From positions 123,443 to 187,442 of the forward strand of contig JAIEMQ010000007.1 of assembly GCA_019752015.1 (NCBI GenBank): 64,000 nucleotides of DNA. The letters run 5' to 3'. The translations under genes were made by a program, and so were the position numbers. Position 1 is the stretch's first letter. Each line of letters begins with the position of its first letter. Below, in pieces: positions 51,243 through 52,587 of the stretch. The notes under the pieces are model-generated. The model had not been told where the DNA came from. It searched no databases and saw only the letters and a program-made list of their open reading frames with translations. Origin of the DNA: Cyanobacteriota bacterium. Its GTDB lineage: Bacteria; Acidobacteriota; Vicinamibacteria; Vicinamibacterales; UBA2999.

Positions 51243-52379
51243 GTGTTCATCTTGCCGTCAAAGAGCGCGGTCGTCGTGGCCGCGCTCTTTTTCTTTGCGG
51301 CGTGCTCATCCTCCTCGACCGGCGCCGGGACCGGGCAGCCGAGGATCGTGCTGAACGCCGACAAGCCGCGTCCGACCATCGACGTGGTCGACGTGCCGGC
51401 CAGTCAGCTGAGCGCCCTGCAGGGCACCGAATCCCGCGAAGCGTGGAATGCGGTGCTGAAGATTTCCGTCGGCCCCGATCAACCGGCCACCATCGGCACC
51501 TATCAGATCGGGGACGGCCGCATTGTGTTCGAGCCGATGTTTCCGCTCGATCACGGGCGGCAGTATCACGTCACGTATTCACCGCCAGGCGCGGCGCCGA
51601 TCACGTCGATCGTGTCGCTGCCGGCGAGGAACATGACGCCGGCGACCATGGTCACGCAGGTGTATCCGACGTCGGAGGTCGTCCCCGAAAACCAGCTGCG
51701 GCTGTACATTCACTTCTCCGCGCCGATGGGATCGAAGGGCGGCCTCAGCTACGTGCACCTGTTTGCGGATGACGGCGCCGAAGTCGTCGATCCGTTCCTG
51801 CCGCTCGACGCGGAATTCTTCAACGACGACCGCACGCGCTACACCGTGTTCTTCGATCCGGGCCGGCAGAAGCGCGGCATTGCGCCGATCGCCGACATGG
51901 GCCGATCGTTGACGGCAGGCAAGTCGTACACGCTGGTCGTCGATTCCGAGTGGCGCGACGGCAACGGGCTGCCGCTGACGCAGCAGTTCAAGCGCACCTT
52001 CAAGGTGGGACCGCCCGACGAGAAGCCGCTCGATCCGAAGACGTGGAAGGTGCTGGCGCCGGCCGCCGGCACCACCGGACCGCTGGCGGTCGCGTTTCCG
52101 GAGCCGCTCGATCACGGACTGTTGCTGCGCGCGCTGGGCGTGGTGTCCCCCGAGGGCAAGCCGCTACCCGGTGAGGTCGTGATCGGCGAGCAGGAACTGA
52201 CCTGGTCGTTCACGCCGAAGTCGCCCTGGGCTGCAGGCGCCTACAACATTGTCGCGTTCGCGATGCTCGAGGACCTGGCAGGCAATCGCATCGGGCGCGC
52301 TTTCGAAGTCGATCAGTTCGATCGCACAGATAAGAGCGGCGAGCCCGAAAAGACCTTCATCGCGTTCGTCGTGCGCTGA
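51243..52379 (+). CDS. Putative lipoprotein with bacterial Ig-like domains
   Basis: GTG start; SAVVVAALFFFAACSSSSTGAG lipobox; repeated VYPTSEVVPENQLRLYIHFSAPMG-type Ig-like motifs. Confidence 0.65.
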   Translation: MFILPSKSAVVVAALFFFAACSSSSTGAGTGQPRIVLNADKPRPTIDVVDVPASQLSALQGTESREAWNAVLKISVGPDQPATIGTYQIGDGRIVFEPMFPLDHGRQYHVTYSPPGAAPITSIVSLPARNMTPATMVTQVYPTSEVVPENQLRLYIHFSAPMGSKGGLSYVHLFADDGAEVVDPFLPLDAEFFNDDRTRYTVFFDPGRQKRGIAPIADMGRSLTAGKSYTLVVDSEWRDGNGLPLTQQFKRTFKVGPPDEKPLDPKTWKVLAPAAGTTGPLAVAFPEPLDHGLLLRALGVVSPEGKPLPGEVVIGEQELTWSFTPKSPWAAGAYNIVAFAMLEDLAGNRIGRAFEVDQFDRTDKSGEPEKTFIAFVVR

Positions 52380-52386
52380 TCTCTCT

Positions 52387-52587
52387 ATCCACAGATTTCA
52401 CAGATTGCACAGATTGCCGAGGCCCCGCGCCGCCGGGCTTCGCCCGGCGCTACGCGGTGAACGACGAGACAGGATCGAGAGAGCATTGGCTCGCGTTCTG
52501 CTCTCTCGATCCTGTCTCGTCGTTTCACCGCGCGGCCGAAGGCCGTTCGCGGGGCCGCCTTCTGTGTAATCTGTGTAATCTGTGGAT
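52387..52587. repeat. 201-bp nested palindromic (MITE-like) element
   Basis: Outer arms 52387-52413 / 52561-52587 (25/27) made of a 9-bp CACAGATTN period; inner arms 52453-52485 / 52499-52532 (33 bp, one bulged base) around a 13-nt loop. Confidence 0.9.

Follow-up and report, generated by a model that had tools for sequence, protein, structure and literature searches.

A 201-bp palindrome at positions 52387-52587 of the window (the whole 64-kb stretch of DNA that was analysed) is probably non-autonomous and MITE-like, and would belong to a family of small mobile elements that are associated with GxxExxY genes and settle at the 3' ends of genes. This family, whose complete members carry one small nuclease gene between inverted arrays of 8-9-bp repeats, is widespread but apparently undescribed. 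The type of array tracks the clade of the GxxExxY protein, different species are occupied at different sites, and there is a tendency for the elements to adjoin gene 3' ends.

The palindrome nearly fills the gap between the stop codons of two convergent genes, at 52379 and 52591. Its outer arms (52387-52413 and 52561-52587), 27 nt each, are 93% complementary and 9-bp periodic, the repeat unit being CACAGATTN; its inner arms (52460-52485 and 52499-52524) form a perfect 26-bp pairing, stand 13 nt apart and can be extended with one bulge. A preliminary description of this DNA had proposed an element filling the convergent gap, with 9-bp periodic outer arms and inner arms that pair with one bulge, and all of this is borne out. 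It had also predicted a nested palindrome forming one very long hairpin, of which the strength of the fold stands and the simple nesting does not. The folding energy of a 217-nt stretch is -158 kcal/mol, versus a mean of -77.9 for shuffled sequences (z = -17), but the fold is a three-hairpin junction, closed by the array stem together with the GGCCCCGCG/CGCGGGGCC stem (Table 1). Within the window CACAGATTNCACAGATT occurs once, as part of the 201-bp element. A search of Rfam 15 with the element gave sub-threshold matches only and no family at its gathering score.

Table 1. Coordinates of the features that make up the 201-bp element
Feature	Position	Strand	Description
Left terminal array	52387-52416	+	ATC followed by three 9-bp units, CACAGATTT/CACAGATTG/CACAGATTG
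Core closing stem, 5' side (GGCCCCGCG)	52421-52429		from the fold
First side hairpin (CGCCGGGCTTCGCCCGGCG)	52431-52449		19 nt; 8 bp, 3-nt loop
Central long hairpin	52453-52532		80 nt; roughly 33-bp stem interrupted by one bulge, and a loop region of some 13 nt
Loop-proximal motif of the central hairpin, GATCGAGAGAGC	within 52453-52532		common to relatives
Second side hairpin (CGGCCGAAGGCCG)	52533-52545		13 nt; 5 bp, 3-nt loop
Core closing stem, 3' side (CGCGGGGCC)	52548-52556		from the fold
Right terminal array, inverted	52559-52587	-	CACAGATTA units, GGAT at the end

The element has relatives in its own 5.9-Mb genome (G000); the preliminary description had named an absence of other copies as grounds against its reading. 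A DNA search gave 68 partial matches, and most of these can be assigned to about 20 discrete elements, all with inverted CACAGATTN-like arrays at both ends. With no more than about 71% identity even to the closest paralogue, the copies are old. In most of them the core has the same order of a short hairpin, a long hairpin (74-82 nt) and a second short hairpin. The junction spans 115-126 nt, despite widely differing sequences, in all 17 units with a resolved core, a set comprising short copies, cores that adjoin GxxExxY genes and the orthologous-site elements of two congeners. Central stems aligned as two groups revealed compensatory changes, both sides having changed in 12 of 18 and 11 of 16 pairs; covariation along the stems was 0.58 and 0.39, and fell to at most 0.18 and 0.21 when the pairing was slid. 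Pairing has thus been maintained while the sequence changed, possibly through selection on the structure or through template-switch correction of a DNA palindrome. No palindromic core was found outside the elements of this genus, which makes the core an add-on rather than a general signal. At three other loci of this genome (L010, C22:2523-2756; L021, C3:30408-30653; L030, C22:5054-5279) two types of array are interleaved and not nested: on the left CGCAGAG lies outside and CACAGATT inside, and on the right CTCTGCG lies inside and AATCTGTG outside.

Gene-less copies outnumber gene-bearing ones. In an 859-bp gene-bearing copy (G000:C13:70823-71681), a GxxExxY gene (TIGR04256) lies between two nearly identical cores, inside CACAGATTN arrays. 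All seven GxxExxY genes of this genome are placed between inverted short-repeat arrays, of the CACAGATTN, CACGAAGNN, CACGGAGN and CACAGAAAN types and, in one case, mixed. The CACAGATTN arrays of the window element recur at the GxxExxY loci L033, L034 and L035, and its three-hairpin core recurs in C13 (twice), L034 and L032; the gene-bearing form in this genus has the core too, in some cases flanking the gene on both sides. The window element belongs with these loci on two grounds, in that its inverted terminal arrays are of the class found around the GxxExxY genes of the same genome and its core module is common to it and a gene-bearing copy.

The GxxExxY genes inside the gene-bearing elements match TIGR04256 / PF13366 above cut-off, and the protein at L034 is PF13366 PDDEXK_3. 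Because no homology to solved structures was found at the sequence level, we compared folds. For one aligned member (L031), an AlphaFold model with a pLDDT of 95.6 had Cas4 SSO0001 as its best match (E = 0.0037, probability 1.0) and also matched the PD-(D/E)XK nucleases lambda exonuclease and R2 endonuclease. On this model, the GxxExxY protein is predicted to have a PD-(D/E)XK nuclease fold. The gene is present in 77 of 217 sampled genomes of the phylum. In the open-licence PMC literature we found no function for GxxExxY and, searching by family name or by repeat sequence, no paper linking it to inverted arrays or gene-less elements.

The coupling of arrays to these genes was measured by scoring the left flank of each gene against the reverse complement of its right flank. 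Inverted arrays at 28 of 32 GxxExxY loci in the family scored above the maximum of 385 control positions. In a cross-phylum set that included one archaeon and was picked by a conserved peptide pattern rather than at random, 55 of 77 loci scored higher than any of 128 controls, and the same CC(A/G)C(A/G)GAG ends are seen at many of the remaining loci. When the array core (GAG, AAG or GAT) was mapped onto a tree of 95 proteins, it changed 7 times, versus at least 19 times in 500 shuffles; within the family there are 3 changes of array class on the protein tree, versus at least 8 in shuffles. A single protein clade (SH-aLRT 99) holds all ten GAT-type (CACAGAT/CGCAGAT) arrays. Since different clades within G000 have different arrays, the array follows the protein and not the host. 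Among the 217 genomes sampled from the phylum, triple CACAGAG arrays occur in 18; GxxExxY is present in 17 of these 18, versus 60 of the 199 others (p = 8e-8); G184 is an array-bearing genome in which no GxxExxY gene was detected. Arrays far outnumber genes in several array-bearing genomes (60 array matches and one gene in G172). In a GxxExxY element of Geomonas azotofigens (L179:2060-2920), the gene is preceded by a second CCACGGAGAAAATCTGAG array, and GTAACGGTTACAT-like repeats form a run inside.

Sites were compared across species by using the joined flanks of an element as a query against congeners. Empty sites and target-site duplications had been proposed earlier as checks on mobility. 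Empty sites were found, as uninterrupted matches where G000 is filled, in seven species for C61, in three for C10 and in two for C11. Two C61-orthologous sites (L224 in G006 and L226 in G002), otherwise empty, hold short one-sided repeats (CAGAGTTCAGAGTTAAGAGTTCAGAG and GGGCTTGGGGCTTG, respectively), as if different array families had hit one intergenic spot. At the C10 site other array elements adjoin the same stop codon, of CACAGAG types in G007 and G008, decayed in G005 and of the GTAGCCAGTA type in G004. The site orthologous to that in the window holds elements in G007 and G008, decayed remains in G004 and G005, and none in G001 and G006. The G007 and G008 elements are orthologous and are each other's closest relatives, and the window element resembles neither as closely as it does its own paralogue C64, in reverse orientation. 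Simple inheritance of the window element was therefore rejected, and separate arrival or replacement is likelier. All comparisons were between species about 75% identical, so that the junctions are not base-exact, and among these species no transposition between near-identical genomes was seen. A phage or plasmid origin was also rejected: GxxExxY was absent from 50,697 phage records, was not found in the viral contigs, and was rare on plasmids (8 of 72,556). Of the origins first considered for the palindrome, a non-autonomous mobile element is the one supported by the roughly 20 family members, the empty sites in congeners and the gene-bearing partner. Points against it are the age of the copies, the confinement of the palindromic core to this genus, the array-bearing genome G184 and the failure to find target-site duplications.

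The preliminary description had also considered a structured RNA or a bidirectional terminator. Under such a reading the palindrome, whatever its origin, would be selected between convergent genes as a structured RNA, a terminator or a protector of mRNA 3' ends. The convergent setting and the very strong fold fit this, as do the compensatory stem changes and the G007 and G008 elements, which differ in sequence and both keep the fold. The ends of the terminal inverted repeats likewise cluster near stop codons, at a distance of no more than 15 bp from a long open reading frame's stop codon in 42 of 124 cases versus 20 of 307 random positions. However, the variable occupancy of the window-orthologous site among congeners argues against a conserved terminator, as do other copies that sit between co-directional genes or upstream of genes. 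No U-tract was noted, the folding energies of the two strands are nearly equal, with neither clearly preferred, and the link between arrays and GxxExxY is left unexplained by this reading. A structured element is supported by the constant architecture and the compensatory changes; with neither strand preferred, an RNA function is no more than a possibility. We consider it unlikely that an RNA or terminator role accounts for the palindrome, and regard such a role as a possible secondary function of a mobile element.

Another enzyme might move the elements, for instance a RAYT/Y1 transposase of the host, leaving GxxExxY as a passenger or regulator that processes RNA or DNA, such as by cleaving the hairpin that an array forms in transcripts. 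The genome does contain about a dozen Y1_Tnp (RAYT-like) genes (L087-L098), most with palindromic ends, and a lone nuclease of 100-130 aa would be unusual as a transposase. Unrelated four-helix-bundle, S23-like genes (TIGR02436; L075-L083 and L085 in the own genome, L231-L255 in the family) are likewise found mostly between inverted arrays, and for this reason the gene may be interchangeable cargo. Their arrays consist of short, often 7-bp repeats (GTAGCCG, GCTAGCGG, CAGGGAA, TTGGGGC), and 10 of 12 such loci in this genome, like 19 of 21 across the family, scored above the control maximum of 16.5 or above nearly all controls. Yet the palindromes of the Y1 loci are their own and different, for example of the CTTTAGTCCCGCC and GCTTTAGCCG types, with no CACAGATT arrays, and the class of array tracks the GxxExxY clade rather than the host. 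A passenger role for GxxExxY is accordingly a doubtful alternative in our judgement, at odds with the tracking of arrays by protein clade.

An ordinary MITE derived from an insertion sequence with a DDE transposase is very improbable, since, although the element is small, gene-less, multicopy, bounded by terminal inverted repeats and present or absent between species, target-site duplication is not above background, the product of the gene-bearing partner has a PD-(D/E)XK nuclease fold and the ends consist of tandem arrays that vary in unit and length. Direct repeats of at least 5 bp flank 7% of GxxExxY elements versus 6% of shuffled pairs, and 2 of 15 short copies versus 7%; the target-site duplications proposed as a check were thus not found above background, and an IS or MITE with target duplication is not supported.

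A membership of the GxxExxY-associated family suggests how the window element could move. We infer from the sequences that the nuclease mobilises the elements. The autonomous form has one GxxExxY gene between inverted arrays of 8-9-bp repeats, and the nuclease of the CACAGAT clade would recognise CACAGATTN arrays in trans. Its cuts would start excision or copying, and host repair or replication would complete the movement with no target duplication. The core may be a DNA cruciform or hairpin (or RNA) feature of the elements of this lineage, its palindromy kept by selection or by template-switch correction. The tie of GxxExxY to array mobility is a correlation, and the protein could have a passenger role.

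A broader proposal, which we find plausible but hold tentatively, is that GxxExxY is the mobilising enzyme of minimal mobile elements in many phyla: a PD-(D/E)XK nuclease of about 120 aa that recognises inverted 8-9-bp arrays (together, in this lineage, with a cruciform core). Insertion would be at gene 3' ends and would leave no target duplication, gene-less copies would be moved in trans, and a parallel class would use the four-helix-bundle protein with 7-bp arrays. The data provide a testable hypothesis, that GxxExxY proteins serve as the enzymes of minimal mobile elements whose ends are tandem arrays. If it is true, it would account for a large class of intergenic palindromes and repeats so far unexplained in environmental genomes, add a mechanism of mobility without a known transposase, and provide a natural example of palindromes whose symmetry persists as their sequence changes. 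Such elements are present in many bacteria, and their mode of movement appears to be undescribed in open-licence PMC papers.

In REP/RAYT systems, small multicopy extragenic palindromes, often at gene 3' ends, have gene-less copies that outnumber a single small enzyme gene. By analogy of working, the pairing of REP or REPIN with RAYT is the closest counterpart of the elements described here, which are likewise small, multicopy, extragenic palindromes, often at gene 3' ends, with more gene-less copies than enzyme genes. They differ in size and build, REPs being 20-40 bp (PMC3733652), whereas the element here is 201 bp, with 9-bp terminal arrays and a three-hairpin core of 115-126 nt. They differ also in the linked enzyme, a predicted PD-(D/E)XK-fold protein here and a Y1 HUH transposase in RAYT; membership of REP/RAYT was rejected, as the 13 Y1_Tnp matches in the genome carry different palindromes or lack them. 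MITEs of DDE insertion sequences are similarly short and gene-less, have terminal inverted repeats and are presumably moved in trans; the present elements are distinguished by the absence of target-site duplication, by tandem-array ends and by a partner that is not a DDE transposase. The intervening sequences of 23S rRNA with S23 (TIGR02436) resemble the gene-bearing form in enclosing one small gene within an inverted repeat that folds as RNA, but have another protein and other repeats, mostly of 7-bp units, and the copies described here are not known in rRNA genes. Finally, TIGR04256 / PF13366 PDDEXK_3 is annotated only as a nuclease-superfamily protein, whereas here it is tied to inverted arrays.
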